A stretch of 64,000 nt of DNA from Actinomycetes bacterium (GTDB taxonomy: Bacteria; Actinomycetota; Acidimicrobiia; Acidimicrobiales; Ilumatobacteraceae), in the NCBI GenBank assembly GCA_021414085.1, contig JAIOPC010000002.1, forward strand, positions 62,001 through 126,000. The letters run 5' to 3'. Positions 4,898 through 23,748 of this stretch are shown here, one piece after another (within the stretch, counting starts at the first letter, position 1; every line of letters begins with the position of its first letter). The notes beneath the pieces were generated by a model, which worked only from the letters and a program-made list of their open reading frames with translations, was not told the origin of the DNA and searched no databases. A program made the position numbers and the translations under genes.

Positions 4898-5284
4898 GTG
4901 ACGAGCCAACGCATAGTCAGGCTGGTCGGTGTGTACGACGCCGACAGCACGCTGCGCGGCGAGCTGTCGTATTGGGTCGGCGCTCGCCTTGGCAGACGCC
5001 ATTGCTCGCTGTGCGACATCACCCACGGGTCCGTGCGCGAGCGGCCGGAGTGGAAGACGTGTCGTGACGGGCTACCGGTGCCGTTCGATACGTATCATCG
5101 CAACGATCAGCCCGATGCGGTGCGAGCAGCAGCCGGCGCGACTGCACCGGTCGTGATCGTGCAGACGGAAACGGCGCACCTGTTGTTGCTGACGCCAGCC
5201 GAGCTGCACGCTTGTGAGGGTTCGATCGAGAAGCTGACCGACGCGATTGATGCTGCCGCTTCGCGCCTGGGGCTTGACCTCTAG
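4898..5284 (+). CDS. conserved hypothetical protein with CxxC
   Basis: This 128-residue cytoplasmic protein starts at GTG 4898. It carries the pattern HCSLCDITHG (residues about 34-43) with a CxxC pair, then a mixed alpha/beta-looking body. I recall this HCSLCDITHG-type pattern from actinobacterial proteins of unknown function but cannot name the family. The CxxC could bind metal or act in redox chemistry. It is divergent from the channel gene (53 bp apart) and overlaps the convergent SCO6745-family gene by 4 bp at its end. Confidence 0.7.
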   Translation: MTSQRIVRLVGVYDADSTLRGELSYWVGARLGRRHCSLCDITHGSVRERPEWKTCRDGLPVPFDTYHRNDQPDAVRAAAGATAPVVIVQTETAHLLLLTPAELHACEGSIEKLTDAIDAAASRLGLDL

Positions 5285-6171
5285 CGCGTCTTGCGGTCGC
5301 GTGCTGCTGGCATCCAATTCGGCCCGGCGGTGGCATCGATGCGCTCGACCAATCGGGCACCGACCGGCTCGACCAGTTCAAGAAACTGACGAGTCAACGG
5401 TTCGCCCAGAAACTGCCACGGCGTGGCGGTGAGATCGTCGAGCTGATCCTCCAACGCTTGGCGATGTGCGATGCCACGCTCGTCGACTGCACCATTGATC
5501 GCGAGCCCGCGCGCCTCGAGCTCCGCATACGCAGCAGCGAGCGCGCCGTCGTCGGCACCCCGGCTGCGCGGCAACCAGTCGCCTTCGTACGAGCGCCACG
5601 CGCCGTCGAGCACGCCCGACGCAGTGCCCGACAAGCCGTCGGCGATCTGCATCGCCCAGTGCGTGTCGCCGCGCCACTCGCGAATGCAGTTCACCGCCAG
5701 CCATGCCGACAGCAAAGCGTCGTCGGGGCGCGGCCAGTCGCGATGCGCCGCGAACAACACACGTCCGCCAACTGGCAGCGCGTCGGCAGCCGCCCACATC
5801 GACGCCGCGAGTTCGGCCAAGCCGTCGGTGATCTCGGGCACGTAAGTGCGCAGGCCTTGCACGACCGCCGCGTCGCGCGCCGCGGCTGTCGCGGCGAACG
5901 TGGTGTGTTGCCGACACAGGTCGAGGCTGAACTTGATGAAGCCCGCGTGGATGGAACCGAACGCAGCGGTGACGACACCATCGCCCGCCACGGCGAGGGG
6001 CGCGGCGCGTGTTGCGATGTAGTAGCCGGTGCCGTCGGGCACACCGAGCGCCGCGTAGTTGGCGATGCCCACCGGGTCCCAGTAGATCCATCCGATCAAG
6101 CGATGCGATGCCAGCGCACATCGACGACTGAGTTCGCGCCAGTCGGTTGCCGTCTCATGCACGTTCGTCAT
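5281..6171 (-). CDS. SCO6745-family protein
   Basis: The 296-residue protein matches the actinobacterial family named after Streptomyces SCO6745. The N-terminal part has the typical HRLIGWIYWDP...YYIATRAAPL arrangement, followed by an Ala-rich helical body with DALLSAWLAVNCIREWRGD. No catalytic motif is known to me and the biochemical function is unassigned. It starts at ATG 6171, only 29 bp from the divergent membrane-glycosidase gene, so the two promoters must overlap. Its end overlaps the neighbour on the other strand by 4 bp. Confidence 0.75.
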   Translation of the reverse strand: MTNVHETATDWRELSRRCALASHRLIGWIYWDPVGIANYAALGVPDGTGYYIATRAAPLAVAGDGVVTAAFGSIHAGFIKFSLDLCRQHTTFAATAAARDAAVVQGLRTYVPEITDGLAELAASMWAAADALPVGGRVLFAAHRDWPRPDDALLSAWLAVNCIREWRGDTHWAMQIADGLSGTASGVLDGAWRSYEGDWLPRSRGADDGALAAAYAELEARGLAINGAVDERGIAHRQALEDQLDDLTATPWQFLGEPLTRQFLELVEPVGARLVERIDATAGPNWMPAARDRKTR

Positions 6172-6200: not shown

Positions 6201-8570
6201 ATGAAAGCCCGATTGAAGAACGACGTGGTCCGCGGGCTGTTGTGGTGGATACCGGGTTGCTTGGTCTTCTTTCGCGCTGCATTCACGAGCGGCTTCGACA
6301 AGATCACCGGCACCGACGGTGATGCGCGGCTGATCATCTTTCTGCACGAACACTGGGTGCAGGCGGCCCAAGGCGATGTGTCGTGGACCAGCCCGCAGCT
6401 GTTCTTTCCCACCAAGGGAGTGCTGGGCTACAGCGAAGGATTCCTGCTCAATGAAACCTTCTACCTACCACTGCGCGCGATCGGCATGGATCAGTTCATG
6501 GCGTTTCAATGGACGCTCATCTTGCTCAGCCTGGTTGGGTTCGTTTCGCTGTTCGTGTTTCTGCGCCGCGTGTTCAATCTCAGCGCGCCGATCTGTGCTG
6601 CGTTAGCAACCACATTCACGTTTGCCAACAACCTCTACGTGAAGTCGATTCACGCGCAGCTGTATGCCGTCCACTGGCTACCACTCATCTTGCTCTTAGT
6701 GCTGCAAGCGTTTCGCGCAACCAACCCGCGAGCGCGCAATGCGTGGGGTTTCGCCGCCGGTGCAGTGTTCGGCCTGCTGTACTTCACCTCCTTCTACATC
6801 GCGTGGTACGCGACGTTTGCCGTGCTGTGGATCGCGGGGCTGCTGTTGATTTGGCGCGTCGCTACGCGTGGTTTCGGCGCGGTGAGGCGCGCGGTTCATC
6901 CGTACCTACCGGCGACGCTGAGCGCGGCCGGTGGCTTTGGATTGGCGATGATTCCGTTTGCCATCACCTACGCGCGCATCGCCAAGACGTTCCCAGACCG
7001 GCACTACTTAGAGGCGATGGCCTACGCGGCATGGCCATCCGACATGATCAACGTGGGCGCATCGAACCTCATGTGGGGATCGGCGCTGCGCAGTGTCGTG
7101 ACGCGCGAGCGCCTGTATAACCACGAGACTTCGCTCGCACTGACCCCAATTCTCATGCTGGCGGCGCTTGTCGGCTGCGTCGTCATTCTCATTCGCCGCC
7201 GGACCGTCGCGGTCGGCTTTGCCGGCGAGCTCGGCATCGCATGCGGAGTCACCCTCGTGACCGCGACGCTGCTGCCAGTCCAGTTCGACGGCAACAGTGC
7301 GTGGGCGGTCGCGTACACGTTCTTTCCTGGTGCGCGATCACTGCGCGCGATCGACCGCATAATGCTGATCGGCGTCCTGCTGGCGGTGATGATCATCGCG
7401 ATTGCGCTCGCGTCGCTGCGCGATCGCGAACGCGTTGGTCGCGCGCGTCGTTCGCCTCGCGCGGAAGCCATTGGTATCGCCGTCGTCCTAGCCCTCATCG
7501 TCGTCGAACAGGTCAACGTCGGTGCCAGCTCGTTGGTGGACCGTTCCGATCAGCAGCAGATGCTGAGCGCTGTGCCCGATCCGCCCGACGCCTGCCAGGC
7601 GTTCTACATCACGGATTCCGGGCCCTTCGACGAGGCGCTGCCGATCTCGGCGATCGATGCGATGTTGATCGCGCAGCGCTACTCGCTTCCGACCCTTAAC
7701 GGCTACAGCGGTCAGTCGCCGCGCGGCTTTCGCTTTCTTGATCCACGCGGCGACGACTATCTGTATCGAGTTGGCTTGTGGGTGAGAGAGTTTGGCCTCA
7801 GTGAGGGTCTGTGTTCCTACGACCGCTTCACCAACGTGTGGACCGACCAAGTGCCAGCGCTACCGCCGAGCAACGCCGGGCTCGACTATCAACTGGGCGG
7901 CGCGTACGAGCCGACCAGCGACACGCAGATCGTGGCGCGCGACCGCACCGATGCACCCGACCCGAGCCGCTACAACATCTGCTACGTCAACGGTTTCCAG
8001 ACTCAGCCGGATGAGGCCGACATGTGGCTGACGGAGAATCCCGATCTGCTGTTGCGCAACGCCGTAGGCGAAGCGATCGTCGACCCGGAGTGGCCCGACG
8101 AGCACATCCTCGACGTCTCCACCCCCGAGTCGCGCGAGCGACTGCTGGAAATCGTTGGTGCGTGGATCGACGGTTGCGCCGACGATGGGTTTCAAGCCGT
8201 CGAGATCGACAACCTCGACACGTTCACGCGGTTTCCGCAGTATCTAACTGCCGAAGACGCCGTCGCCTTCGCGTACTCACTCGCGGTGCGCGCTCACGCC
8301 GCGGGGCTGGCGATTGGGCAGAAGAACGCGGCCGAGCTACTGAAGCGTCGACCGGAAACCACGTTCGACTTCGCGGTCGTCGAACAGTGCAACGAATACG
8401 AGGAGTGCAGCCTGTTCAAGGCCACGTACGGCGACCAGATGTATGTGATCGAGTACGAACGCGAGGCGTTCGAGAGCGGCTGCGAGAACTACCCGGAGTT
8501 GTCGATCGTGCTACGCGACGTGAATCTGTCGACGCCCGAATCCGCCGGGTACATCCACGACGAGTGCTGA
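6201..8570 (+). CDS. GT-C-like polytopic membrane protein fused to a GH114 domain
   Basis: The 789-residue single chain has two parts. Residues 1 to about 440 hold ten or more membrane segments with an early acidic loop (TGTDGDARL, 36-44), like GT-C glycosyltransferases and related membrane proteins that use lipid-linked sugars. Residues about 560-789 match GH114 (endo-alpha-1,4-polygalactosaminidase, a TIM-barrel family): the opening GLDYQLGGAYEPTSDTQIV, EIDNLD at 668-673, IGQKNA, and EQCNEYEEC from Glu728. The family's catalytic acids would be Asp670 and Glu728. The C-terminal part should face outside. The start at ATG 6201 lacks a clear ribosome site. There is no stop or frame change between the halves, so the fusion is real in this sequence. 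It may make or trim an amino-sugar surface polymer (inference). Confidence 0.8.
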   Translation: MKARLKNDVVRGLLWWIPGCLVFFRAAFTSGFDKITGTDGDARLIIFLHEHWVQAAQGDVSWTSPQLFFPTKGVLGYSEGFLLNETFYLPLRAIGMDQFMAFQWTLILLSLVGFVSLFVFLRRVFNLSAPICAALATTFTFANNLYVKSIHAQLYAVHWLPLILLLVLQAFRATNPRARNAWGFAAGAVFGLLYFTSFYIAWYATFAVLWIAGLLLIWRVATRGFGAVRRAVHPYLPATLSAAGGFGLAMIPFAITYARIAKTFPDRHYLEAMAYAAWPSDMINVGASNLMWGSALRSVVTRERLYNHETSLALTPILMLAALVGCVVILIRRRTVAVGFAGELGIACGVTLVTATLLPVQFDGNSAWAVAYTFFPGARSLRAIDRIMLIGVLLAVMIIAIALASLRDRERVGRARRSPRAEAIGIAVVLALIVVEQVNVGASSLVDRSDQQQMLSAVPDPPDACQAFYITDSGPFDEALPISAIDAMLIAQRYSLPTLNGYSGQSPRGFRFLDPRGDDYLYRVGLWVREFGLSEGLCSYDRFTNVWTDQVPALPPSNAGLDYQLGGAYEPTSDTQIVARDRTDAPDPSRYNICYVNGFQTQPDEADMWLTENPDLLLRNAVGEAIVDPEWPDEHILDVSTPESRERLLEIVGAWIDGCADDGFQAVEIDNLDTFTRFPQYLTAEDAVAFAYSLAVRAHAAGLAIGQKNAAELLKRRPETTFDFAVVEQCNEYEECSLFKATYGDQMYVIEYEREAFESGCENYPELSIVLRDVNLSTPESAGYIHDEC

Positions 8571-8587: not shown

Positions 8588-8625
8588 CGACCTTGCCCAT
8601 ATACTTAGGTATATGGGCAAGGTCG
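8588..8625 (+). promoter_or_regulatory. 17-bp palindrome over promoter and start codon of mntA-like gene
   Basis: A perfect 17-bp inverted repeat (8588-8604 with 8609-8625) is separated by 4 nt (TTAG). A TATACT box at 8600-8605 sits in its left arm, and the ATG (8613-8615) sits in its right arm, 7 nt after the box. That spacing suggests transcription starting at or next to the ATG, so the mRNA would be leaderless. The repeat is the natural operator for the HTH domain of the encoded antitoxin and would give tight autorepression. No convincing -35 box was found. Confidence 0.75.
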
Positions 8626-9116
8626 ACACTGCCGGCATGGTGCGAGCGCTTCGATTGGGCACCGGTTTGTCGCAACACGAGTTCGCGCTCCGCGCCGACA
8701 TGGCTCAATCTGCCATCTCGAACTACGAGAGCGGTCAGAAGAGCCCTTCGCTAGCTACCCTCGCTCGGCTGGCTGCCGCGGCCGACGCCACTCTCGACAT
8801 CTCATTTTCGCCGGTTCGCTCCCCTGCAAGAGTCACGCTGACCTCCTTGCGAAGAAAGCGCGATGCGATAACCGCGACCTGCCTACGCCACGGTGCCTCT
8901 CACCCACGCGTATTCGGCTCGGTCGCGAAGGGAAAGGCCCGAACCGACTCCGACGTCGACCTACTGGTCGACCTCGAGCCCGGCCGCACGTTGTTCGACG
9001 TTGCAGCGCTTCACGACGAACTGGTGGAGTTGCTTGGTCACGAAGTCGACGTCCTCACGTCGGGTGCCGTCCGCGGACGACTGGCGCGTGTGGCCGCCGA
9101 AGCAGTGCCGTTGTGA
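8613..9116 (+). CDS. XRE-type HTH fused to minimal nucleotidyltransferase, MntA-like antitoxin
   Basis: In this 167-residue protein, residues about 7-62 form an XRE helix-turn-helix (LSQHEFALRADMAQSAISNYE). Residues about 80-165 form a minimal nucleotidyltransferase with the GSx10DxD motif (GSVAKGKARTDSDVD), which holds the metal-binding acids. MntA proteins neutralise HepT toxins by transferring AMP to a Tyr in the HepT RX4HXY motif. The partner hepT gene follows with a GTGA overlap. The N-terminal HTH makes this a two-in-one antitoxin and repressor, and a 38-bp palindrome spans its start codon. The start at ATG 8613 is supported by the promoter position rather than by a ribosome site. Confidence 0.92.
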   Translation: MGKVDTAGMVRALRLGTGLSQHEFALRADMAQSAISNYESGQKSPSLATLARLAAAADATLDISFSPVRSPARVTLTSLRRKRDAITATCLRHGASHPRVFGSVAKGKARTDSDVDLLVDLEPGRTLFDVAALHDELVELLGHEVDVLTSGAVRGRLARVAAEAVPL

Positions 9117-9439
9117 GAACAGGCGAACAACGCCTCGCCGACATCCTTGCCGCCACAATCGATGCGGCCCGTTTAGTCGAGGGCGGCCATCAACGGTTTC
9201 TGTCGGACCCATTGCTGATCCGCGCGGCGAAGAACATCATCAGCGAGATCGGCGAATCCGCTAAGGGCATCGACGACAAACTGCTCAACGCAATACCCGG
9301 CGTTCCTTGGAAGGCCGTGAAAGGCATGCGTGACAAAGTGGTTCACGACTATCCGGAGCTCGACCTCGACGTGTTGTGGGAAACGCTCGCCAACGGATTG
9401 CCCGTGATCCATCGCGCCATCGTGGAGCACACCAGGTGA
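9113..9439 (+). CDS. HepT-like HEPN ribonuclease toxin
   Basis: The 108-residue all-helical HEPN (DUF86) protein carries the active-site signature RX4HXY as RDKVVHDY near residues 81-88. HEPN toxins of this type cleave RNA, and the Tyr is the expected AMP-acceptor by which MntA inactivates them. The GTG start at 9113 overlaps the stop of the antitoxin gene, so translation is coupled. The convergent corA gene begins its 3' end 6 bp later. Confidence 0.92.
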   Translation: MRTGEQRLADILAATIDAARLVEGGHQRFLSDPLLIRAAKNIISEIGESAKGIDDKLLNAIPGVPWKAVKGMRDKVVHDYPELDLDVLWETLANGLPVIHRAIVEHTR

Positions 9440-10455: not shown

Positions 10456-11256
10456 GTGACCTACATGAGGCTTGACTCGCCATCGGGTGTCGCATCGGCG
10501 ATCGTGTCGCCCGCCGATGGTGGACGTATCGCGTCGCTCGTCGTCGACGGAATGGAACTGTTCGCGCCGCAAGCCACTGAAGGGCCCCTCGCGTGGGGTT
10601 GCTACGCGACGGTTCCGTGGGCCGGACGAATTCGCGACGGACGGTTCGTGTTCCGCGACGCGACGTACGACCTGCCACGCAACCTGCCCCCGCACGCGAT
10701 TCACGGCGTTGGTTGTGAGCGACCGTGGCAAGTGCTGGGCGACGGCCGACTCGGAATCGACCTGACCGAGCCGTGGCCGTTCGGCGGTCGCGCGACGCAA
10801 ACGTTCGCGATCACCGACGACTCACTACGCATGACACTGCGCGTCGAAGCTGGCACGCGCGACATGCCGGTGGCGCTTGGTTGGCACCCGTGTCTGCGCC
10901 GCCAACTGGCGCGCGGCGCGCCCGGCGAGTTGAGCTTTGAACCCGGCTGGATGTGGCAGCGCGATGCCAGCGGCATTCCCGACGGCACGCGCGTGGCCCC
11001 ACCGCCCGGCCCGTGGGACGACGCGTTCGGCGGCGTGACCACTACGCCAGTGATTCGCTGGCCACGCGCGATCGAACTCGCGCTCGAAGCCGACTGCCCG
11101 GTGTGGGTTGTGTACACCGAACGCGCCGACCAGATCTGCGTCGAGCCTCAGACCGGAATTCCGAACGCGTTCAACACCGTCGGCGAACCGACGGTGTTGA
11201 GCGCAGGCGAATCAACGGAACTCACGCTGACAGTGCGCTGGTCGCTCAGACGGTAG
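10456..11256 (+). CDS. aldose 1-epimerase family protein
   Basis: The 266-residue protein has the galactose-mutarotase fold. Family residues seen are a His in PHAIHGVG, a second His in LGWHPC, and the catalytic Glu in CVEPQTGIPNAFN. These enzymes interconvert alpha and beta anomers of aldoses, or act on hexose-6-phosphates. The start is GTG 10456, with an ATG three codons later as an alternative. It is divergent from corA and overlaps the convergent CHRD gene by 11 bp. The specific sugar is not determined. Confidence 0.88.
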   Translation: MTYMRLDSPSGVASAIVSPADGGRIASLVVDGMELFAPQATEGPLAWGCYATVPWAGRIRDGRFVFRDATYDLPRNLPPHAIHGVGCERPWQVLGDGRLGIDLTEPWPFGGRATQTFAITDDSLRMTLRVEAGTRDMPVALGWHPCLRRQLARGAPGELSFEPGWMWQRDASGIPDGTRVAPPPGPWDDAFGGVTTTPVIRWPRAIELALEADCPVWVVYTERADQICVEPQTGIPNAFNTVGEPTVLSAGESTELTLTVRWSLRR

Positions 11257-12133
11257 CTGTCAGTTGCCAGTCGTAGTAGAAGCCGACCACGTCGATGATC
11301 ACGTGTGTGTCGGCCGACGGGCCAGCCGTGATTGCTACATGACTGGTGCTGTCGACGCGCACCATCGTGCCGTTGGCGACAGTGGTACCGACCAACGTCC
11401 AGTTAATCGTGCTTGTTGCCGGTACTGGTGTGCCGGCCGCGTGGGCGGTGAGGAAACCGGCGGGGCCGGTTTGGGTAACGGTGATCACGACGTCAGCGGC
11501 GTAGGCGCCGATCGGGACGGCCGGCAGTGAAACACCGAACGCGTCCTTGCCAGCGAACAACGAGATCGCTCGAGTCTCGTTCGGGCTGATCCTGTTGCCG
11601 TCGACGCGCGAGTCGTAGGCGCGTACTGGCGTCGCCAACCCGATGTACGTGAGCGGCACTGCGTTGTTGACGAGTTGGCCGCGCAGCGCTCCACCGGGGT
11701 AGCTGGTGGTGTCGATGTTGACGTAGTAGTTCCTCGGGTTGGTGCTGATGTCGAGCACGAGCGCGGGGTCAAGCGGCCCCAGTGCGCATGTGTCCACCGC
11801 GACACCGAAGTCGATAACAACCGGGCCGCTCACACCAGCGGCACCGCTATGCAGTTGCGCACCGGTGACGGCGTCGATGCCCGTCAGCTTGAGCGTCCAG
11901 CACACGTCGTTGCTGACACCGGTGGAAACATAAACACCAGCGGAACCGATTCCATCTGGATCGCCGGGCGTGGGAACCTCGTTAGCGCCCAGCAAGTTGG
12001 CCAGCAGGTACGCCTCCGTGTTGGGGGCCACGCCATCGGCGACCCTCACCCCCGGAGTGACGAACGCGCCGAGTGCGAGAATGCCGAAACCCGCAACTGC
12101 CATAAATGAAGTGGAAGACCTTGATCGCTTCAC
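11246..12133 (-). CDS. secreted CHRD-domain protein
   Basis: The 295-residue protein starts at GTG 12133, chosen because an AAGGAGG ribosome site lies 7 nt upstream. It has an N-terminal membrane/signal segment (SFMAVAGFGILALGAFVTPG). A CHRD-type domain (about 40-155) begins LLGANEVPTPGDPDGIGSAG and contains LHSGAAGVSGPVV and YPGGALRGQLV. The rest (about 160-295) is a second beta-rich domain opening ATPVRAYDSRVDGN and ending VIIDVVGFYYD, which I know mainly from secreted actinobacterial, especially Acidimicrobiia, proteins. Function is unknown; CHRD domains occur in extracellular and matrix proteins. It supports the proposed taxonomic placement. Confidence 0.85.
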   Translation of the reverse strand: MKRSRSSTSFMAVAGFGILALGAFVTPGVRVADGVAPNTEAYLLANLLGANEVPTPGDPDGIGSAGVYVSTGVSNDVCWTLKLTGIDAVTGAQLHSGAAGVSGPVVIDFGVAVDTCALGPLDPALVLDISTNPRNYYVNIDTTSYPGGALRGQLVNNAVPLTYIGLATPVRAYDSRVDGNRISPNETRAISLFAGKDAFGVSLPAVPIGAYAADVVITVTQTGPAGFLTAHAAGTPVPATSTINWTLVGTTVANGTMVRVDSTSHVAITAGPSADTHVIIDVVGFYYDWQLTATV

Positions 12134-12271
12134 AATCTTGCCTCCTTGCACGCCCAATCTGGTCGTGCACCCAAATCGTCCGCCCGCCGAACAACGGCAG
12201 CTAGAGGCTTGCGCCTCTGGAGTCACAGTCGCTGACCGGGACGAGTAGCACTTGTGTTACCTATTGCAGCC

Positions 12272-12535
12272 ATGACAACCGTGGGCTTGCGAGAACTCCG
12301 CCAGCACGCGCGCGAACTTGTGCGCAGAGTCGAGGGTGGCGAGGAGATTCAGATCACAGTCGCCGGGCGACTCGCGGCCCGTTTGATTCCGGCCGCGCCA
12401 CGGCGCTGGCGGCACTGGAACGAGATCGCCAGCGTATTCGCAGGCAGCCCCGACCCAGATTGGCAGCGCGACAGAGACCTGATCGATCAGTCCGTCGTGA
12501 ACCCCTGGGGGCGCACCGCCGAAAGCGGTTCTTGA
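12272..12535 (+). CDS. Phd/YefM-type antitoxin
   Basis: This 87-residue protein reads from ATG 12272 (a GTG at 12254 is less likely). It has the Phd/YefM opening VGLRELRQHARELVRRVEGGEEIQI, continued by TVAGRLAARLIP, the beta-hairpin and helix arrangement that forms the DNA-binding dimer. The C-terminal half (HWNEIASVF... to the end) would wrap the toxin. The downstream frame encodes a PIN-domain toxin that overlaps it out of frame. The dimer would repress its own promoter. Confidence 0.85.
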   Translation: MTTVGLRELRQHARELVRRVEGGEEIQITVAGRLAARLIPAAPRRWRHWNEIASVFAGSPDPDWQRDRDLIDQSVVNPWGRTAESGS

Positions 12536-12542
12536 TACCAGC

Positions 12543-12899
12543 GTGTTGATCGCCACCGGCGTGCCCATGTTGGAGGGCGACCTCGCGATCAGCACGGCGT
12601 CGCTCGCAGAACTTCACTTTGGTGTACTCGTCACGAACGACCCGACGATCCGAGCGGAACGGTTACGACGACTGTCGGAGCTTCAGCGGAAGTTCGACGC
12701 GCTGCCGGTCGACGAGGCTGTTGCCATCAGCTACGGCCTTCTCGCAGCTGCACTAGCCACCTCCGGCCGCCAACCGCGGTCTCGCGTGATGGACCTGTTG
12801 ATCGCGGCGACCGCACATGCCCACTCGGCGCGGCTGTACACGAGAAATGCCGACGACCTCGCCGGCCTAGAGCACCTGGTGGACGTCGTCGCGGTGTGA
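12543..12899 (+). CDS. PIN-domain toxin (VapC-like) lacking an obvious start codon
   Basis: The PIN-domain frame is clear: LDTSVLIATG at the front, TASLAELHFGV with the second acid, MDLLIAATAHAHSARLYTRNADDL with the third and fourth. VapC toxins are Mg-dependent RNases that need the first Asp, in LDTS. That codon lies at 12534-12536, upstream of the first usable start (GTG 12543). The frame is open from 12501, but no ATG, GTG or TTG occurs before 12543. A GCG at 12525, just ahead of GTTCTTGATACC, is one transition from a GTG that would give the expected start. As written, the toxin is probably inactive, or starts at a non-standard codon. The antitoxin stop (12533-12535) overlaps the region out of frame. 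Confidence 0.7.
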   Translation: MLIATGVPMLEGDLAISTASLAELHFGVLVTNDPTIRAERLRRLSELQRKFDALPVDEAVAISYGLLAAALATSGRQPRSRVMDLLIAATAHAHSARLYTRNADDLAGLEHLVDVVAV

Positions 12900-13048
12900 A
12901 CGGTCGGTTCGGCAGCCCGCTTGAACCGCCGGGCTCTGCTCATCGGGGAATCGGCTTACCCAGAATCGCCTACAGGCGCTTACTGCCTCTGATGTAGCTA
13001 TGCGTGACTCAGACCTGTTTCCCAGGAGACGAGTGGTCCTGCATCCGC

Positions 13049-13600
13049 TTACGCGCGCAGCCTGAGCCACAGGCGACCAAGCCACCCAGGTCCTACCCGG
13101 ATGTCGGTCCAGTCGCCGCCACGATCCACTCTATTCGAGGGAATTTCTAGGCGATCCAACCGGCGCCAACGAGCGGTCGAGTGCGTTTGCGCCCATACAA
13201 CGACACGCGTCGGCCAGGTATCTCGGTCGCCGCAGCGTCCGGTGAACACCGCCGCCATACCGAGGGTTGCGCCGCCTTGTAGTACTAAAGGCAGATTGTC
13301 ATTTGCCGCTCCATCAATTGCGACAAAGCTCAGCAGACAGGTGGGGCTCGCTTCAAACGACACCGCGAGATCCCTGACGATCACCGGTCGTTGACCGCGA
13401 ACGAACAAGGTCAGCCAGAACTCAATCTGCCACTCGGGAGCCAGATCATTGTTCATATCCCGAAACATCCGTACCCGAAGCGGTTTGACGGTCCGAAGTC
13501 GACCCTTTCTAAGCTTGTCCCACCAGAAGGTGCCCATAGTGACCACCACCGCCAGGGTTGAGACGAGCAGGGCTGGATCGCCGAAATCAGGTCCTGTCAT
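13049..13600 (-). CDS. single-TM hypothetical protein downstream of the NTPase
   Basis: The 183-residue protein has one N-terminal membrane segment (about 10-27, ALLVSTLAVVVTMGTFWW) followed by a basic stretch. A soluble beta-rich domain with many Trp and Arg follows (PEWQIEFWLTLFVRGQRPVIV). I do not recognise the family. It lies 59 bp after the NTPase stop on the same strand, or overlaps it by 14 bp if the NTPase frame is extended (see the repeat at 13676). It is probably the membrane partner of that NTPase. The 149 bp before the VapC end (12900-13048) hold nothing I can identify. Confidence 0.6.
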   Translation of the reverse strand: MTGPDFGDPALLVSTLAVVVTMGTFWWDKLRKGRLRTVKPLRVRMFRDMNNDLAPEWQIEFWLTLFVRGQRPVIVRDLAVSFEASPTCLLSFVAIDGAANDNLPLVLQGGATLGMAAVFTGRCGDRDTWPTRVVVWAQTHSTARWRRLDRLEIPSNRVDRGGDWTDIRVGPGWLGRLWLRLRA

Positions 13601-13659
13601 ACGCGTACTCGTCAGTCTTAGCGATCAGATCGACCCAGCGCAGGGTCTGGCTCAATTCG

Positions 13660-15939
13660 TCACATATCAAGATTGCCACTCCACTCCACTCCAGCCTTGC
13701 GTAGATCAGCCAGGTAGTCACGAACGGGGTGGAGCAGAGGGCGCAGCTGGACCGCCACATCGCGCTCAAGTAATCCGCACCCGACCAGGGTCCCAAGAAA
13801 CGCCGACATGATGTTGTGCGTGCGTACGAGGAACAGCGTCGAGCCGAAATCGTTCATGAAGTGTATCGCGTGTTCGAGGTCCACTCTTGGGTCGCCAGCA
13901 GGCACAGGAATCTCTATTCTGAACTTCGGCAGCAGAAACTCGGTGAGAAATCTGGCTGCGACTGCGAACCTAAAACTAGCGAGCTCTACAAGGCGATATG
14001 GGACGCCTGCCGGCCTTGATGCGTCAATCTCGTCGCCGAGCAACTTGGCTGCTTCTTCAAAGATGTGTGTGGTCTCGTCTCTCGTGGCAGCCGCCCAAAA
14101 AAGGAAGTCAGACGTGTGACAAAGGACATCAATCAGATACTCGCCAGCCCATTGAAGGCTCACCGAGATCTGCTGCGGCTCCTGTTGAGGGACCTCATGA
14201 ACTCTGGTATGCCAACCCTCTATCTCGAGAAGACCGCTATCTCCGGTGTAACGCTGCGCCGCTAGCTCGCGCACAGCGCGATTCACCTCCTCCGGTCTCA
14301 CTCCGTAGCCGTTGTCGTTGGAAAGGACGTCCTGAAGCACGGCCAGCGTCGTGGACCCTCGCTCCCGACGGCGCAGATACTCCAAAATGTGGACCTTGAG
14401 AAAGAAAATCCCTCTCGGGTTAGCCGTGCGGGACAATCGGATGAACGGAAGCGCCGCCGGCACCCGGTTGATGTTGGGCGTAGCAGAATCGTCACGATCA
14501 ACTGAGAATATGAACTTACGCAAGCTGTGAAGGCGCGTCACGATCTTGACCTGGTCGATCCACTGCGAATCGTGGGGAGTTGGGGACGCGATCAGACCCA
14601 TTATGGTCTGCGCGCTGGAGGCCGGGTTCGTTCCGGAGAGTGCATCAAGCAGAATTCTCTCGAAGGCTTCCGCGATTGCTCTCAACGAGCCGTTGTACCA
14701 CCGCGTGAAGTGATCGATGAGATTTCGATTGTTGCTCGCATATATCCCCTCCTGACAGAACAATTCCAGCACCTCCCTGTTTCTTTCAACAATCTCAGAT
14801 TGATCTGTCCCGAGCCAGGAGGAGATAAAGTCGATACGGCTGTCAAGAAAACTGGCGACGAGAGCTACGGCCATGACCCGAGCGTCGCTCCCGCCCGCGG
14901 GGGTGGATCCGGCAGGGACAATGTCCCGAACGTCATCCTCGACGTGAAGCCCCAGCGGGAACTCAATCACAGCACCGTCAATCACGGACTCAATCACCTC
15001 CGCAATCTCTGCCGCATTTCGGGGGCGAAGTGGAAGAACAAGGCTGACTTTGTTTCGGCCGCCACTCATTACGCGTGCAAATCGCGCGAAGATTTTCGCC
15101 ACTTCCAGCCTGGTCGCAGGTGGTTCGCTATCGAGATTGTCGACAATGAACACAACCCGGTGTCGAAAAGTTCTTCGAATAAAGCGCAACAGAACACTCA
15201 AGCCGTCCTCCGCCTCGTTGTCCATGAACCGCTTGCGCGCGTCGACCATCTCGGACTCGGGCACATCCTCGAGTTCCTGCCCATACTCAGTCAACACTGG
15301 CGTGAAGGCCCTAGCGTTCAGCAGACGAAATCGCTTCCACGCCACCCGCGCCTGGTGGGAGGTGATAAACGTGGGTAAAAGGTCCGCAATGATGGACGAG
15401 GCGATTTCATTTGCATTTGTTGAACGGGGAAACCCTGGTTCTCGAGCTGAATAATAGTGCAACGAAGCTGTTGCTACTTTCGCGTCTAAGGCCACCTCGT
15501 CGCCGCTCGCGACCCATCGGTCGACTCGTTCACCTACGTGCGTAAATGGATCGAGCCCGCGCATCGCATCGGGAACAGCGGTGTCCACGTTGAGACCAAC
15601 CAATTCTGGACGCCGGGCAGCGCGGTCCCAGAGGGTGGTCTTTCCGGATCCCCGCTCGGCCGACAATACCACCACGTCAGATCTCGCCCGCAGCGAAAGC
15701 TCTAAAAGTCGTTCAGCCACATGACGCTGAACGTACAGCTCATCGTCGAAGGCATCAGCCAGAAGTGCCAGCATGTCCGGGTCAACGACCTCGACAACAT
15801 CGGATTGACGTTCATCAGCGTCATCCGAGATAGGGCGGTGATGGTATCGAATTGCGATTCGAAGAACCTTCGCAAATTCCTCCGAGTCGAGGTGACTCAA
15901 CGCGCGCGGACGTTTCTCGAATCGATCAATGACACCCAT
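13660..15939 (-). CDS. large P-loop NTPase, STAND/KAP-like, probable defence protein
   Basis: In this 759-residue protein an N-terminal leader (1-85) precedes a P-loop domain. The Walker A is SAERGSGKTTL (93-103, Lys100) and the Walker B is VVFIVDNLD (262-270, acidic pair Asp267/Asp270). A region with sensor-like Arg residues follows (LVLPLRPRN), and the C-terminal half (about 480-759) is helical, including a winged-helix-like stretch (TTLAVLQDVLSNDNGYGVRPEEVNRAVRELAAQ). It resembles STAND or KAP-type NTPases found in bacterial immune loci, but I cannot name a family. Base composition is visibly more AT-rich than the flanks, which suggests transfer. It is divergent from the Mrr-like nuclease. 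Its last codons contain a pentanucleotide repeat. Confidence 0.72.
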   Translation of the reverse strand: MGVIDRFEKRPRALSHLDSEEFAKVLRIAIRYHHRPISDDADERQSDVVEVVDPDMLALLADAFDDELYVQRHVAERLLELSLRARSDVVVLSAERGSGKTTLWDRAARRPELVGLNVDTAVPDAMRGLDPFTHVGERVDRWVASGDEVALDAKVATASLHYYSAREPGFPRSTNANEIASSIIADLLPTFITSHQARVAWKRFRLLNARAFTPVLTEYGQELEDVPESEMVDARKRFMDNEAEDGLSVLLRFIRRTFRHRVVFIVDNLDSEPPATRLEVAKIFARFARVMSGGRNKVSLVLPLRPRNAAEIAEVIESVIDGAVIEFPLGLHVEDDVRDIVPAGSTPAGGSDARVMAVALVASFLDSRIDFISSWLGTDQSEIVERNREVLELFCQEGIYASNNRNLIDHFTRWYNGSLRAIAEAFERILLDALSGTNPASSAQTIMGLIASPTPHDSQWIDQVKIVTRLHSLRKFIFSVDRDDSATPNINRVPAALPFIRLSRTANPRGIFFLKVHILEYLRRRERGSTTLAVLQDVLSNDNGYGVRPEEVNRAVRELAAQRYTGDSGLLEIEGWHTRVHEVPQQEPQQISVSLQWAGEYLIDVLCHTSDFLFWAAATRDETTHIFEEAAKLLGDEIDASRPAGVPYRLVELASFRFAVAARFLTEFLLPKFRIEIPVPAGDPRVDLEHAIHFMNDFGSTLFLVRTHNIMSAFLGTLVGCGLLERDVAVQLRPLLHPVRDYLADLRKAGVEWSGNLDM
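13676..13690 (-). repeat. three-copy pentanucleotide repeat at the NTPase 3' end
   Basis: CCACT is repeated three times on the plus strand (TGGAG in the coding sense), followed by a partial copy to 13693. With three copies the NTPase ends 11 residues after the repeat begins (EWSGNLDM). With four copies the frame would run on in the neighbouring frame (AILICDELSQTLRWVDL and beyond) to a stop at 13587-13589, overlapping the next gene's ATG by 14 bp. Copy-number slippage here would swap the C terminus. Confidence 0.6.
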
Positions 15940-16280
15940 TCCCGCACAATATCCGCTTGTACGAATTGCGAGTAATGGGTAGTGGGTCAGTTGAATTGCG
16001 GGTCGTCAGTCGCTTGGGTGTCTGCGTTCCAACGTCGTTGGAACGCGAACGCGCATTTCGCGCTACAGAAACTCCATTGCGGCGGGTCCTTACCTTCTCG
16101 CAGGACGTGCATGGGCGAATCGGTCCGGCCTGCCCGACGTGTTTGCCGCACTCCAAACAGTCAAACGGGCGAGTGTCCACGATCGTCGGGCTATCAGCCA
16201 TGTCGATCATCGGGTGTGGCGCGGTTTCCCGGCGTCTGATCGAGCCGAATGTATATTCGCGAAGTGCTGGGCAAACAGGT
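15940..16280. other. 341-bp divergent intergenic region
   Basis: This stretch separates the minus-strand NTPase from the plus-strand Mrr-like gene. A plus-strand frame is open through it and in phase with the nuclease (from 15957), but its conceptual product is Cys/Arg-rich and unlike the DUF2510 start. I therefore treat it as non-coding. It must hold two divergent promoters; a TATATT at 16252-16257, 24 bp before the nuclease ATG, is a weak -10 candidate. No repeats were found. Confidence 0.4.
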
Positions 16281-17432
16281 ATGACTACTCCGGCGCCCGG
16301 CTGGTATCCGGATCCATGGAAACTCGCCCCGAATAGGTACTGGGATGGATCCGGGTGGACCGGAGCGACCGACATCAGTGCCACACCAACGAGCCAAGTC
16401 CCACCAGCGCAATTCCCGCCTCCGACGACCGATCGCGACAAGGGCGCTGCGCTGGAACAGCAAGTTGCGCGGTTCCTACGATCGAGCGGTTACGAAGCGC
16501 GCACCAACGTGATCCTCACTGGCCGCTCAGGCGCGTCCCATGAACTCGACGTTGTGGGCGAGAAGCACGACAGCCTTACTTCGTTTCTCGTCGCCGTTGA
16601 GTGCAAAGCATGGGAGCAACCGATCGAGAAAGATGTGGTCGCGAAGTTTGCCTACGTGCTTGGCGATCTGGGCATGCGGGCGGGCATCATTGCTTGCCTC
16701 TCGGGCTACCGCAGCGGAGCAGAAATTGCCGCCAAGGAAATGAACATCGAGTTATGGGGGCCGGACGAGCTGAGAAGCCGCCTCGGACAAGTTGCCCTTA
16801 GCGACATGTCGACACGAGCCCCAAAGCGTCTCGCAACAGGACTCCCATTCACCATTTCTATCGAGCAGGCCCAACCGATGATTGGTCGCGAGGCCAAAGG
16901 AAAACTCGGGTTCGGGGCCGAGGAAGTCGTCTGGATATCAGCCGCTTGGCTTCCGGTGGCGATCGTGCAGGTAGCGCTCACCTCGATCGAGGGACGTCTC
17001 AAGAAGGTCGACGCGACACGACGAATCTGGAATGTGTACGAACTTGTGGATGGCAAGTTCTTCGGCGCGTTCGCCGGTCAACCGCCGCTCGTCGACATCG
17101 ACCTCGGCAAAGTCTCGATCCGGCCAAAGCGGAAGGAAGCTTCTGCCAGCAAAGCTATTGAGGAAGCTGTCGCCAAATACAGAGGCGTCACGACGCAGGC
17201 TGCTCGAGCTCGTCACGCCTCTCACCTAGAGAGTCTTGGAATCCACGCTCCCTTCCGCGCCGTTCCGGAGTCGACCACAACAGCGTTCATGCCCGTCTAC
17301 CTCGCAATCATCAGACGCCGCGACGGCGAACGACTGGTTGCGGTCGACGGGCACCAGCCAAGAGTCCTGTACGGGGTCAGCGCCGTGCTCTCGCAACACA
17401 TTCACTGGGTTCGCGAATCATTCGGGGCGTAA
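16281..17432 (+). CDS. DUF2510 plus Mrr-like restriction endonuclease
   Basis: The 383-residue protein starts at ATG 16281, because the next residues TTPAPGWYPDPWK...RYWDGSGWTG form a DUF2510 module, which normally sits near a protein start. A PD-(D/E)xK nuclease of the Mrr type follows: ALEQQVARFLRSSGYEARTN, Asp90 in HELDVV, and Glu107-Cys-Lys109 in VAVECKAW. These are the metal-binding and catalytic residues. The C-terminal half (about 180-383) has no motif I know. Mrr-like enzymes often cut modified foreign DNA, but Mrr-cat domains also occur in other defence and housekeeping proteins. It lies between an NTPase and a type I restriction operon, consistent with defence. Confidence 0.8.
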   Translation: MTTPAPGWYPDPWKLAPNRYWDGSGWTGATDISATPTSQVPPAQFPPPTTDRDKGAALEQQVARFLRSSGYEARTNVILTGRSGASHELDVVGEKHDSLTSFLVAVECKAWEQPIEKDVVAKFAYVLGDLGMRAGIIACLSGYRSGAEIAAKEMNIELWGPDELRSRLGQVALSDMSTRAPKRLATGLPFTISIEQAQPMIGREAKGKLGFGAEEVVWISAAWLPVAIVQVALTSIEGRLKKVDATRRIWNVYELVDGKFFGAFAGQPPLVDIDLGKVSIRPKRKEASASKAIEEAVAKYRGVTTQAARARHASHLESLGIHAPFRAVPESTTTAFMPVYLAIIRRRDGERLVAVDGHQPRVLYGVSAVLSQHIHWVRESFGA

Positions 17433-17519
17433 GCCAGCAGGACCCAGCACTCGAAGCGGCCACGCCCGTCACGACACCTCCGCTGTTGTGTGATACTCCC
17501 TCAGCGGCTGGAGGGAACC

Positions 17520-18143
17520 ATGGAGAAGCTCAAGGAACTAGGCCACAAGTGCTGGGTGAAGTACCGCAGTTGGCCGTTGTGGGGCCAGATAGTGAGCGGA
17601 TTCTTTGCAGTATCCCTCGTCCTCGGCCCCTTGAGTGACAAGGAAAAGAGCGACCACATCGACGCAAGCGCGCTGGTGGCAGTTGCGACTTCTGCCACGC
17701 AAGTCTCGGAAACGCCATCAACATCGCCCGCGACTTCGTCAAGTCAGGTCAGCGAGACGACGGCGGCAACCACGACCAGCACGACGAACACAACTACAAC
17801 GTCGACTGTTGTGACGACCACGCTTCCTGCCGCAACGACAACCACTCGTGCAGCAACGCCGACCACAGTTCGCGCAACAGCGGTTCACGCGACGACAGCT
17901 CCAAAGACCACTCCGCCTGCTACCCCGGCTCCGCAAGCGCCGATCCCTTTCGCCGGCACACCCGGTGCCGCGGCACCGGGGGGATGTAGCCCGAACTATT
18001 CACCGTGCGTACCGATCGATTCGGATGTCGATTGCGCAGGTGGAAACGGTAACGGGCCGAGCTACGTGCAAGGCCCTGTTTCCGTCATTGGGACGGATGT
18101 GTATGGGTTGGATCGTGATGGAAATGGAATCGGTTGCGATTAG
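17520..18143 (+). CDS. membrane-anchored Thr-rich protein with excalibur-like C-terminal domain
   Basis: The 207-residue protein starts at ATG 17520, set by GGAGGGA just upstream. A short cytoplasmic start is followed by one membrane segment (about 22-40, LWGQIVSGFFAVSLVLGPL). A long Thr/Ser/Ala/Pro linker (about 60-150) comes next, then a Cys-containing domain (CSPNYSPCVPIDSDVDCAGG and on) ending GLDRDGNGIGCD. The terminal DxDxNGxxC pattern is a calcium-binding excalibur-like motif common in secreted actinobacterial proteins. It should be a surface protein. It may simply be a bystander between two restriction loci. Confidence 0.78.
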   Translation: MEKLKELGHKCWVKYRSWPLWGQIVSGFFAVSLVLGPLSDKEKSDHIDASALVAVATSATQVSETPSTSPATSSSQVSETTAATTTSTTNTTTTSTVVTTTLPAATTTTRAATPTTVRATAVHATTAPKTTPPATPAPQAPIPFAGTPGAAAPGGCSPNYSPCVPIDSDVDCAGGNGNGPSYVQGPVSVIGTDVYGLDRDGNGIGCD

Positions 18144-18229
18144 CGCACATGCGCAATCGCTCCGGCCCTCGCACACATCTGGCACGATGTTGACCCGGGC
18201 CGGCAGGGCCCGGCACTCACCGTGACAGC

Positions 18230-21007
18230 ATGACCGACAACCAACTTCCCGCAGAGGCGCAGGCTCGTGCGCTCATCGACGCTCAGCTGCGACGCGCCGG
18301 TTGGCATGTCTGCGATCGCAAGGACATCGACCTGGTTAACCACCAGGGCGTCGCCGTTCGCGAGGTGATCATGGCCGCCGGGCACGGTCGCGTCGACTAC
18401 TTGCTGTTCGTAGATCGTCGAGTCGTCGGCGTCATTGAAGCCAAACCGATTGGCACGGCACTCGCCGGGGTGCAGTGGCAGTCAGCGATGTACGCCGTAG
18501 GTCTTCCGGATGCGTTCCGACCAACGGCCGTGCTGGTTGGCGATCGCCTTCCATTCGTGTTCGAGGCGTCGGGCACCGAGACCCAGTACACCAACGGATA
18601 CGACCCGCATCCGCGAGCCCGTAAAGTGTTCAACTTTCCCAAACCGGCCACGCTCGCGCGAATCCTGCGTGAGGCAGCAGATGACGCGGCGTCACCAACA
18701 TGGCGAGCGAAGGTCACTTCATTGCCGCCGTACGACAACTATGACCTTCGACCCGCATCCAGGGTTGCAGTTGGCGCCGTCGAACGATCGTTGGCTACTG
18801 GTCAGCACTCGCGCTCGTTGGTTCAGATGGCCACCGGTGCCGGTAAGACACGCATGGCCGTGACGGAGTGCTATCGGCTGATTCGCTATGGCGGCTTCAA
18901 CCGCATTCTGTTCCTCGTCGACCGCAACAACTTGGGTGACCAGACGCTGCGCGAGTTCCGTGACTTCTCGACTCCCGATGATGGTCGGAAGTTCACGGAG
19001 CTTTACCCGGTGGACAAGCTCACCGGTGCCGGGATGGTCGACTCGTCCAAGGTCGTTATCTCCACTATCCAGCGCGTCTTCTCGGTGCTGCGCGGGCAGG
19101 AAGTCCCCGACGATGACGACCCGAACATCGACGACTACACGCCGGACAAGCCAGTCACTGTCGACTACGCCGAAGCGCTGCCACCGGAGACGTTCGATCT
19201 GGTCATCGTCGATGAGTGCCACCGCTCGATCTACGGGTTATGGCGCGGCGTGATCGAGTACTTCGACGCGCACATACTCGGTCTCACTGCAACGCCCACC
19301 AAACAGACCTTCGGCTTCTTCCAGCAGAATTTGGTCTCCGAGTACACCTACGCCCAGTCCGTTGCCGACGGAGTCAATGTGGACTTCGATGTGTACCGAA
19401 TCAAGACCGAAATCACCGAAAAGGGATCGACGATTGAAGCGGGGACCGTCGTGCCCATACAGGATCGTCGCACTCGCCAGCAACGGCTCGAAGAACTCGG
19501 TGAAGATTTGGAATACAAGCCGAGCGAGCTCGACCGTGCGGTAACCAGCCGAGCGCAGATCAGACTCGTCTTGGAAACCTTCCGCGACCGGTTGCCGCTC
19601 GAGATCTTCCCCGGCCGCAACACCGTCCCGAAGACTCTGATCTTCGCCAAGGACGACAACCACGCCGAAGAGATCGTGACGCTCGCTCGTGAGGTGTTTG
19701 GGAAGGGCAACGACTTCGCCGCCAAGATCACCTACACAGCCAAGGATGCGAAGGCGTTGCTGCAGCAGTTCCGCAATTCGCCAACGCTGCGCATTGCTGT
19801 CACGGTCGACATGATCGCCACCGGCACCGACGTCAAGCCGATCGAGTGCGTGTTCTTCATGCGCGACGTGCGATCGCGCACCTACTTCGAGCAGATGAAG
19901 GGACGTGGCGCTCGCACCATCGACGACGCCACGTTCCGGACGGTGACACCCGACGCGAACAACAAGCGACGCTTTGTCATCGTTGATGCCGTTGGTGTCA
20001 CCGAGCATCCATTCGTCGACGCCGCACCACTCGACCGCAACAAAGGCCTCAGCCTGAAGCAGCTGATGGAAAGGGCGGCGAACTTCACGATCACCGCGGA
20101 AGAAGTCTCGACTCTCGCGTCTCGTCTTGCCCGTCTGGATCGCGAACTCACTCCGAAGGAACGCATCGAAGTCGCAACGCTTGCCAAGGCACCCCTCGCC
20201 GAGATCACGCGCGGTCTGCTGACTGTCGTTGACCCAGACGTGTTGGAAGGATTGGCACAGGGCGCTCCGCTGGGAGACGACGGCCAGCCGAATATCACGC
20301 AGGCGCTTGCGCTACACGTACAGCAGGTGGTCACGCCGCTCGCCGGCAACCCTCAACTTCGCCAGCGCTTGCTCGAGATTCGCGAGAGCCACGACCGCGT
20401 GATCGACGAGGTATCCGTCGACGCTCTAACCGCGGCGGGCGGAGTCGTTGACAAAGGCAAGGCGCTCAACGTCGTGACCTCGTGGAAGCAGTTCCTCGAA
20501 GACCATCAAGACGAGATCATCCTCATCCACCTCCTCTACAGCCAGAACCAGAACGCGAAGGTGACGTTCCAACAGTTACGTGAGCTCGCTGACCAAATCG
20601 AACGACCACCGCGCTCGTGGACAGTCGATCTCATTTGGAATGCCTACGAGACCCTCGACAGCGAACGCGTTCAGAAAGCGAATCAGCACACGGCGACAGA
20701 TCTCATTGCGCTCGTTCGATTCACCCTCAACCAGCAGAACGAGCTGGTTCCGTACGCCACTGGAGTCGAGGAGCGCTACACCAACTGGCTTGCGCAGCAA
20801 GCGCAAGAAGGCGTGAAGTTCAGCGACAGGCAGCGGTGGTGGCTCGACCGAATCAAGGACACCATCATCCAGTCGGCAAACATCACAATCGACGACCTCG
20901 ACGCGGCGCCATTCACCGAGCGCGGAGGCGTCGACGGCTTTGGTCGCGATCTCGGACCAAGGGCGCAGACCATCATTACAAGCCTCTCCGAAACGCTCGC
21001 CGCGTGA
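18230..21007 (+). CDS. hsdR: type I restriction enzyme, R subunit
   Basis: In this 925-residue protein the N-terminal nuclease carries Asp56 in GRVDYLLF and Glu70-Ala-Lys72 in VIEAKP, a PD-(D/E)xK site. The SF2 motor follows, with Walker A GAGKT (Lys206), DECH at 328-331, LGLTATPT, and later helicase motifs (VTVDMIATGTDVK, MKGRGAR). The C-terminal region resembles the EcoEI-type R C-terminal domain, which binds the methylase core. It translocates DNA and cleaves far from an unmethylated site. The hsdS start overlaps its stop (GTGA at 21004-21007). hsdR first, then S and M, is a less common gene order. Confidence 0.96.
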   Translation: MTDNQLPAEAQARALIDAQLRRAGWHVCDRKDIDLVNHQGVAVREVIMAAGHGRVDYLLFVDRRVVGVIEAKPIGTALAGVQWQSAMYAVGLPDAFRPTAVLVGDRLPFVFEASGTETQYTNGYDPHPRARKVFNFPKPATLARILREAADDAASPTWRAKVTSLPPYDNYDLRPASRVAVGAVERSLATGQHSRSLVQMATGAGKTRMAVTECYRLIRYGGFNRILFLVDRNNLGDQTLREFRDFSTPDDGRKFTELYPVDKLTGAGMVDSSKVVISTIQRVFSVLRGQEVPDDDDPNIDDYTPDKPVTVDYAEALPPETFDLVIVDECHRSIYGLWRGVIEYFDAHILGLTATPTKQTFGFFQQNLVSEYTYAQSVADGVNVDFDVYRIKTEITEKGSTIEAGTVVPIQDRRTRQQRLEELGEDLEYKPSELDRAVTSRAQIRLVLETFRDRLPLEIFPGRNTVPKTLIFAKDDNHAEEIVTLAREVFGKGNDFAAKITYTAKDAKALLQQFRNSPTLRIAVTVDMIATGTDVKPIECVFFMRDVRSRTYFEQMKGRGARTIDDATFRTVTPDANNKRRFVIVDAVGVTEHPFVDAAPLDRNKGLSLKQLMERAANFTITAEEVSTLASRLARLDRELTPKERIEVATLAKAPLAEITRGLLTVVDPDVLEGLAQGAPLGDDGQPNITQALALHVQQVVTPLAGNPQLRQRLLEIRESHDRVIDEVSVDALTAAGGVVDKGKALNVVTSWKQFLEDHQDEIILIHLLYSQNQNAKVTFQQLRELADQIERPPRSWTVDLIWNAYETLDSERVQKANQHTATDLIALVRFTLNQQNELVPYATGVEERYTNWLAQQAQEGVKFSDRQRWWLDRIKDTIIQSANITIDDLDAAPFTERGGVDGFGRDLGPRAQTIITSLSETLAA

Positions 21008-23713: not shown

Positions 23714-23748
23714 CGCAATTCTCGACTCGATAGAAGGAACGGTGAGCC

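Follow-up and report, generated by a model that had tools for sequence, protein, structure and literature searches.

Why would a predicted membrane glycosyltransferase and a secreted glycoside hydrolase be encoded as one protein? The question is raised by a gene in a 64,000-nucleotide stretch of DNA, here called the window (GCA_021414085.1, contig JAIOPC010000002.1, 62,001–126,000 of the forward strand; G000:C13:62001–126000 in our genome handles). In answer we propose, as an evenly balanced call, that the fusion joins a GT-C-like transferase to a GH114 domain on the outside of the membrane, where the hydrolase would trim the transferase's chain. The features concerned, in window coordinates, are as follows.

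6201–8570, + strand: fused gene for a GT-C-like membrane protein with GH114; one uninterrupted frame of 789 aa from an ATG
6201–7523, + strand: polytopic membrane part, residues 1–441; 11 predicted helices, N-terminus in and C-terminus out by hydropathy and K/R counts
6282–6506, + strand: first long predicted outer loop, residues 28–102, from hydropathy and alignment; all nine aligned sequences have D41 and E50
7524–7856, + strand: predicted outer C-terminal domain of the GT-C-like family, residues 442–552; C465, C538 and W547 invariant (9 sequences)
7842–7859, + strand: junction TDQVPA, residues 548–553, leading from W547 to the mature GH114 start (LPPSNAG, residue 554)
7860–8567, + strand: GH114 domain, residues 554–789 (Pfam match 562–776), without a signal peptide of its own
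8208–8210, + strand: D670, facing Asp189, the Ega3 nucleophile, in the alignment
8382–8384, + strand: E728, facing Glu247, the Ega3 acid/base, in the alignment
5281–6171, − strand: divergent neighbour, an HTH_67 family protein that nothing links to the fused system

Two halves in one open frame

The initial annotation described a single open frame with an acidic first loop and an intact GH114 domain, and the description holds: 6201–8570 is read through on the forward strand into 789 aa with no stop inside, the loop placed by hydropathy at residues 28–102 contains 8 D/E versus 4 K/R, and EIDNLD (residue 668) and VVEQCNEYEEC (residue 726) lie within a PF03537 match over residues 562–776 (E 5.2e-48, 163.7 bits against a curated cut-off of 27). 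A phmmer search of the PDB aligns this half with Ega3 (6oj1) over residues 629–754 only (E 4.8e-10). By hand count, D670 (the D of EIDNLD) and E728 (the first E of EQCNEYEEC) face residues 148 and 206 of the 6oj1 chain, which an offset of 41 turns into Asp189 and Glu247, given as the verified nucleophile and acid/base of Ega3 in the accessible part of PMC12054363. From this conserved D/E pair, the GH114 half would cut galactosamine-containing chains with a retaining mechanism. The same part of that paper describes GH114-type enzymes as common across bacteria with few characterised, and the bacterial GH114s attempted there did not yield correctly folded protein. Our structure models are, as predictions, too poor for active-site work (mean pLDDT 46.8), and the GH114 half is too poorly modelled for a (beta/alpha)8 barrel to be read from it. 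The host genome holds one GH114.

Residues 1–552 have no Pfam match above cut-off (DUF3007 appears at E 0.17 only) and no NCBIfam match, the sole NCBIfam row falling in the GH114 half; a PDB sequence search with this half matched no solved structure. It is a real protein family, as its relatives align over approximately residues 13–552 with E values down to 1.1e-111. Three of these come from the same genus (G302, 40% identity; G305 and G019, 39% each), one from elsewhere in the family (G711) and six from the order (G258, G550, G482, G291, G047 and G434); three Sphingomonadaceae plasmids carry further relatives at 29% identity, one of which gives an hhalign probability of 100 over 522 columns. 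Identities across the relatives span 27–40%, and D41, E50, W52, C465, C538 and W547 are among the positions invariant in nine aligned sequences. One of nine family members reaches DUF7657 (PF24677; 27.7 bits against 26), for which a search of open-licence papers found no literature. A test for kinship with YfhO (PF09586) found none, with no Pfam match and an hhalign probability of 1.8% against one YfhO of the host genome.

Hydropathy places 11 segments before residue 442 at a lax threshold of 1.2 and 7 at 1.6. Lysine and arginine make up 21 of 68 residues in the loops taken as inside and 22 of 275 in those taken as outside, an enrichment in the assumed inner loops from which the C-terminus is predicted to lie outside. 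By this topology prediction the membrane half would tether the GH114 half to the outer side of the cytoplasmic membrane.

A first-half model built from five sequences (mean pLDDT 51.5) was compared with the PDB using Foldseek, which ranks ArnT first and second (5ezm, E 1.3e-4; 5f15, E 2.0e-3), followed at ranks 3–6 by AglB (3waj, 0.029), OST (6ftg, 0.096; 6ezn, 0.14) and ALG3 (9s6r, 0.16); the model is of low confidence, E falls below 0.001 at rank 1 only and TM-scores are approximately 0.2. We take all six to be GT-C enzymes. VIA-align returns AftA (Z 7.8), AglB, OST and Pmt4 mixed with unrelated helical proteins, with Z under 9. The first half has GT-C hallmarks: many predicted helices, a long first outer loop and the conserved acidic residues D41 and E50. 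As its sequence matches neither a named GT-C family nor a solved structure, we call it GT-C-like and claim no membership. Its weak fold resemblance, together with the gene neighbours of its relatives described below, points to a polyprenyl-phosphate-sugar-dependent glycosyltransferase as the most likely identity, in which case the membrane half would take its sugar from a polyprenyl-phosphate carrier and attach it to a glycan at the cell surface. Of the original interpretation, the architecture of two domains and the intact state of GH114 stand, as does, on weak fold evidence only, the GT-C-like first half.

Rarity and origin of the fusion

The same architecture was sought in other genomes, and both halves are matched in one frame in the window genome alone, out of 15 genomes searched in the genus, 221 in the family, 397 sampled from the order and 296 sampled from the class, with overlap among these samples. 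Our genome searches score only the best candidates in each genome (2 to 4 in the large searches), so a fusion may have been overlooked. The initial annotation could place the architecture nowhere in the literature; among the open-licence papers listed in our searches no title or abstract opening describes such a fusion, and none concerning a GT-C protein fused with a glycoside hydrolase domain was found. Among GH114 proteins, seven hydrophobic stretches precede the domain in the window gene, against none or one in the other 85 of 86 loci (the 85 including the duplicates L009/L129, L014/L144 and L025/L136, the weak matches L039 and L138, and the frames L020, L028, L035, L036, L055 and L150 that run off their locus, of which L055 and L150 were re-read longer; L162–L165 were left out of the count). 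Eleven unusually long GH114 frames elsewhere have one or two hydrophobic stretches each, and none is polytopic. Relatives of the first half in named genomes numbered zero in a first scan and four in a second, each ending by residue 550. Plasmid searches matched 27 records, each over less than 80% of the query; phages gave no match, and no viral contig was confirmed. The host genome itself yielded one member of the first-half family and no second copy of either part, the profile search having scored the best 3 of 17 candidates. A different combination was seen in two other genomes (L156 and L157), where a GH114-type domain shares a frame with WD40/TolB-like propeller repeats, the repeat type being judged by eye.

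The junction lies between complete domains. The first half is complete to W547, and its stand-alone relatives stop within about two dozen residues past this position, approximately where GH114 starts in the fused protein. The nearest stand-alone GH114 (G300, locus L063, same genus) is 67% identical over residues 553–789 and at the equivalent place reads LVGCSTSDGAPAVVGRVLPPANA, a lipobox-like signal followed by the same domain start. The window GH114 is sister to this copy with support of 98/95 in a smaller tree of 42 hand-picked loci, which omits the close phylum-level GH114s L148, L149 and L152 (48–50% identical), and of 97/96 in a larger tree, which adds those three and two others and still places the window beside G300. 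A lipobox-like motif occurs shortly before the domain in 9 of the 17 other GH114s in the window's 18-row clade (L033, L035, L038, L046, L048, L080, L081 and L152 by pattern, L167 by eye); such calls are pattern matches and not proof of a lipoprotein. Two more members (L044 and L047) have the pattern somewhere upstream, one (L036) is cut off, and five of the 17 lack it (L043, L045, L079, L148 and L149). The complete first half and the lipobox-like signal of the nearest GH114 together suggest that the fusion replaced a secretion or lipid-anchor signal: a whole membrane protein probably took over the place of that signal, so uniting a complete GT-C-like membrane glycosyltransferase with what would be the mature catalytic domain of a secreted GH114 endo-alpha-1,4-galactosaminidase. 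Proteins of the window's first 40 kb compared with the ORFs of 16 loci returned the fused gene and a few scattered matches, so the flanks do not reveal the origin of the fusion. The fused gene is probably a new, lineage-specific domain architecture assembled within known kinds.

Neighbourhoods and co-occurrence of the two genes

The neighbouring ORFs scanned in the window (HTH_67, amidase, an MNT/HepT pair, CorA and CHRD) include no glycan genes and no cluster of deacetylase and synthase, and PelG, the sole Pel gene searched for, has no match in the host genome (97% complete). The MNT/HepT pair directly follows the fused gene: an HTH plus nucleotidyltransferase gene (8613–9116, + strand) overlaps a HepT-like gene (9113–9439, + strand) by 4 bases, and the two are likely an MNT-HEPN toxin–antitoxin. 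Further along, 13660–25941 is of defence type, with an AAA_16 protein scoring below cut-off, an Mrr_cat/DUF2510 protein, type I restriction R, S and M genes and a GmrSD protein with a RAMA domain. GC content in the window is 0.565–0.624 over 12–30 kb, against 0.62–0.68 before 12 kb and after 34 kb.

Among six partly annotated loci that carry first-half relatives, three are glycan loci. In G258 (L067) the start of the gene overlaps the stop of RmlD by 4 bases, with an RmlB-like gene before it and GT2 and GT4 genes after; in G550 (L068) a GT2 gene overlaps the start of the relative by 4 bases; and on the Sphingomonadaceae plasmid CP099616.1 (L118) a full-length relative (11036–13620) overlaps the gene of a PAP2 phosphatase and lies next to an exopolysaccharide cluster containing glycosyltransferases, a sugar transferase, an O-antigen ligase, export genes and a UbiA-family prenyltransferase above its NCBIfam cut-off. 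The other three (L062, L069 and L070) are not glycan loci: the scanned ORFs of L069 and L070 contain no glycan genes, and L062, from the same genus, lies among a UvrD-like helicase, an Exo_endo_phos protein and a 2-oxoglutarate dehydrogenase-type protein, with a galactokinase-type GHMP kinase approximately 5 kb off and neighbours largely common to L061 and L065. For the GT2s of L067 and L068, the best models among polyprenyl-phosphate-sugar synthases are AglJ and then PpgS, with scores below 40% of the cut-offs (PpgS, 79.7 and 75.7 against 370 bits). The closest GT2 in the host genome (69%) is on contig C17, beside a YfhO-type protein and away from the fused gene, and at best argues for a shared carrier pool. 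On that contig (L175, 9591–12783, − strand) the GT2 gene adjoins the YfhO-family membrane protein, a probable pair for lipid-sugar transfer.

Do the two genes travel together where they are separate? Ten other genomes have a first-half gene (G019, G302, G305 and G711 from the family search; G258, G550, G482, G291, G047 and G434 from the order sample; a 61-residue, stop-ridden match in G634 was excluded), and two of them, G302 and G258, also have a GH114 gene, each on another contig. A GH114-half match in G019 (E 7.7e-4) was not confirmed by Pfam search. Across the order, GH114 was found in 23 of 337 genomes, the host included. In the phylum as a whole, GH114 and remote matches to the profile of the first half share genomes above expectation (12 of 30 versus 62 of 325; one-sided p 0.004, uncorrected for lineage and assuming identical samples up to handle G1093). 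The two lie on different contigs in all 12 of these genomes, as they do in G302 and G258. This co-occurrence is a weak pointer to coupling and leaves our estimates as they were.

Readings of the fusion and known systems

Given the domains above, the preferred reading is that the adjacent hydrolase would trim, release or re-link a chain that the transferase helps to build, the role proposed for Sph3 and Ega3 next to Gtb3 in fungi. The functional coupling that this entails, taken as a step by itself, we place a little short of even. The initial annotation had gone further, with one protein that makes or exports an alpha-1,4-galactosaminan-like polymer and trims it; that part stays a suggestion, the two genes lying mostly apart in near relatives and PelG not being found. 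The boldest reading would be a one-piece make-and-cut enzyme, whose GT-C half takes lipid-linked galactosamine as its substrate, or else lengthens a wall glycan that bears galactosamine, and whose GH114 half trims or transglycosylates the product outside. We consider this rather unlikely; were it true, it would amount to a bacterial galactosaminan pathway independent of Pel.

The strongest competitor is a simple exchange of anchors, in which the membrane protein is a new surface anchor for GH114 and the two enzymes act on unrelated glycans. The lipobox-like motif in 9 of 17 clade GH114s fits this well, as both forms would reach the outer face of the membrane, and so do the mostly separate genes in near relatives and the single fused genome; yet a protein of 11 helices that keeps its conserved outer-loop residues makes an odd anchor, and the domain of the first-half family is preserved as far as its last invariant residue. 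We lean against this explanation while regarding it as a real contender.

A recent neutral fusion, or a first step of decay with one or both halves dispensable, would suit the single genome and flanking genes that are not common to the relatives compared. Against it, the catalytic D/E pair is retained, searches of the genome turned up neither part a second time (with the best 3 of 17 first-half-profile candidates scored) and dN is below dS in both halves (GH114 half against the nearest stand-alone copy, dN 0.23 and dS 0.98; first half against G302, 0.61 and 1.15, and against G019, 0.71 and 1.53), averages that include the time preceding fusion and are hence not decisive; we judge it quite improbable. 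That an assembly or binning chimera joined two genes is highly improbable: the single genome and a GC3 dip at the junction (0.75–0.80 before residue 520, 0.69 at residues 521–555 and 0.82–0.87 after, a profile that settles neither fusion nor chimera) speak for it, but the join is in frame, without a stop and between complete domains, it lies in a gene that begins 68 kb into a 288-kb contig of a 3.2-Mb genome in 18 contigs (97.28% complete, 0.06% contamination), and the nearest kin found of both halves belong to the same genus. All homologues found do encode the two parts separately, a finding that the initial annotation had named as telling against the fusion if accompanied by a stop between the parts; in the assembly that frame is open.

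The fusion is a rare natural hint at the possible partner of a GH114-type enzyme and supplies a testable substrate idea for an unnamed GT-C-like family. If the halves share a substrate, it would indicate Pel-independent making and trimming of galactosamine glycans in Actinomycetota.

Within each half, the closest comparisons are with proteins that stand alone. The first-half family (G302, G019, G305, G258, plasmid CP099616 and others) has the same outer C-terminal domain and ends without GH114, whereas the G300 GH114 has its own lipobox-like signal and no membrane transferase in frame. Ega3 of Aspergillus fumigatus (6oj1/6ojb) is of the same GH114 family, with the catalytic D and E aligned with those of the fused protein; it is membrane-bound and part of a polymer pathway in the accessible text of PMC12054363. 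Unlike the fused protein it is fungal and has no transferase fusion described in that text, and the match is limited to residues 629–754. In mycobacteria, PpgS and Rv3779 pass lipid-linked GalN to arabinogalactan outside the membrane, according to the portion of PMC9671496 that we could consult; no homology to the fused protein is shown, and no hydrolase is described in that portion.

The nearest functional parallels are systems of several proteins. Galactosaminogalactan production depends on Sph3, whose proposed role is to cut the chain leaving Gtb3, and Pel production depends on PelA, as reported in the available parts of PMC8647848 and PMC12054363. The fungal galactosaminogalactan and Pel systems differ from the fused gene in using separate proteins and a deacetylase in the pathway, and PelG was not found in the host genome. 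Sph3 and Ega3 with Gtb3, and likewise PelA, nevertheless place a hydrolase beside a membrane synthase, as the fused protein does, and by this analogy a coupling of synthesis to trimming, as in fungal galactosaminogalactan or Pel, is plausible for the fusion.
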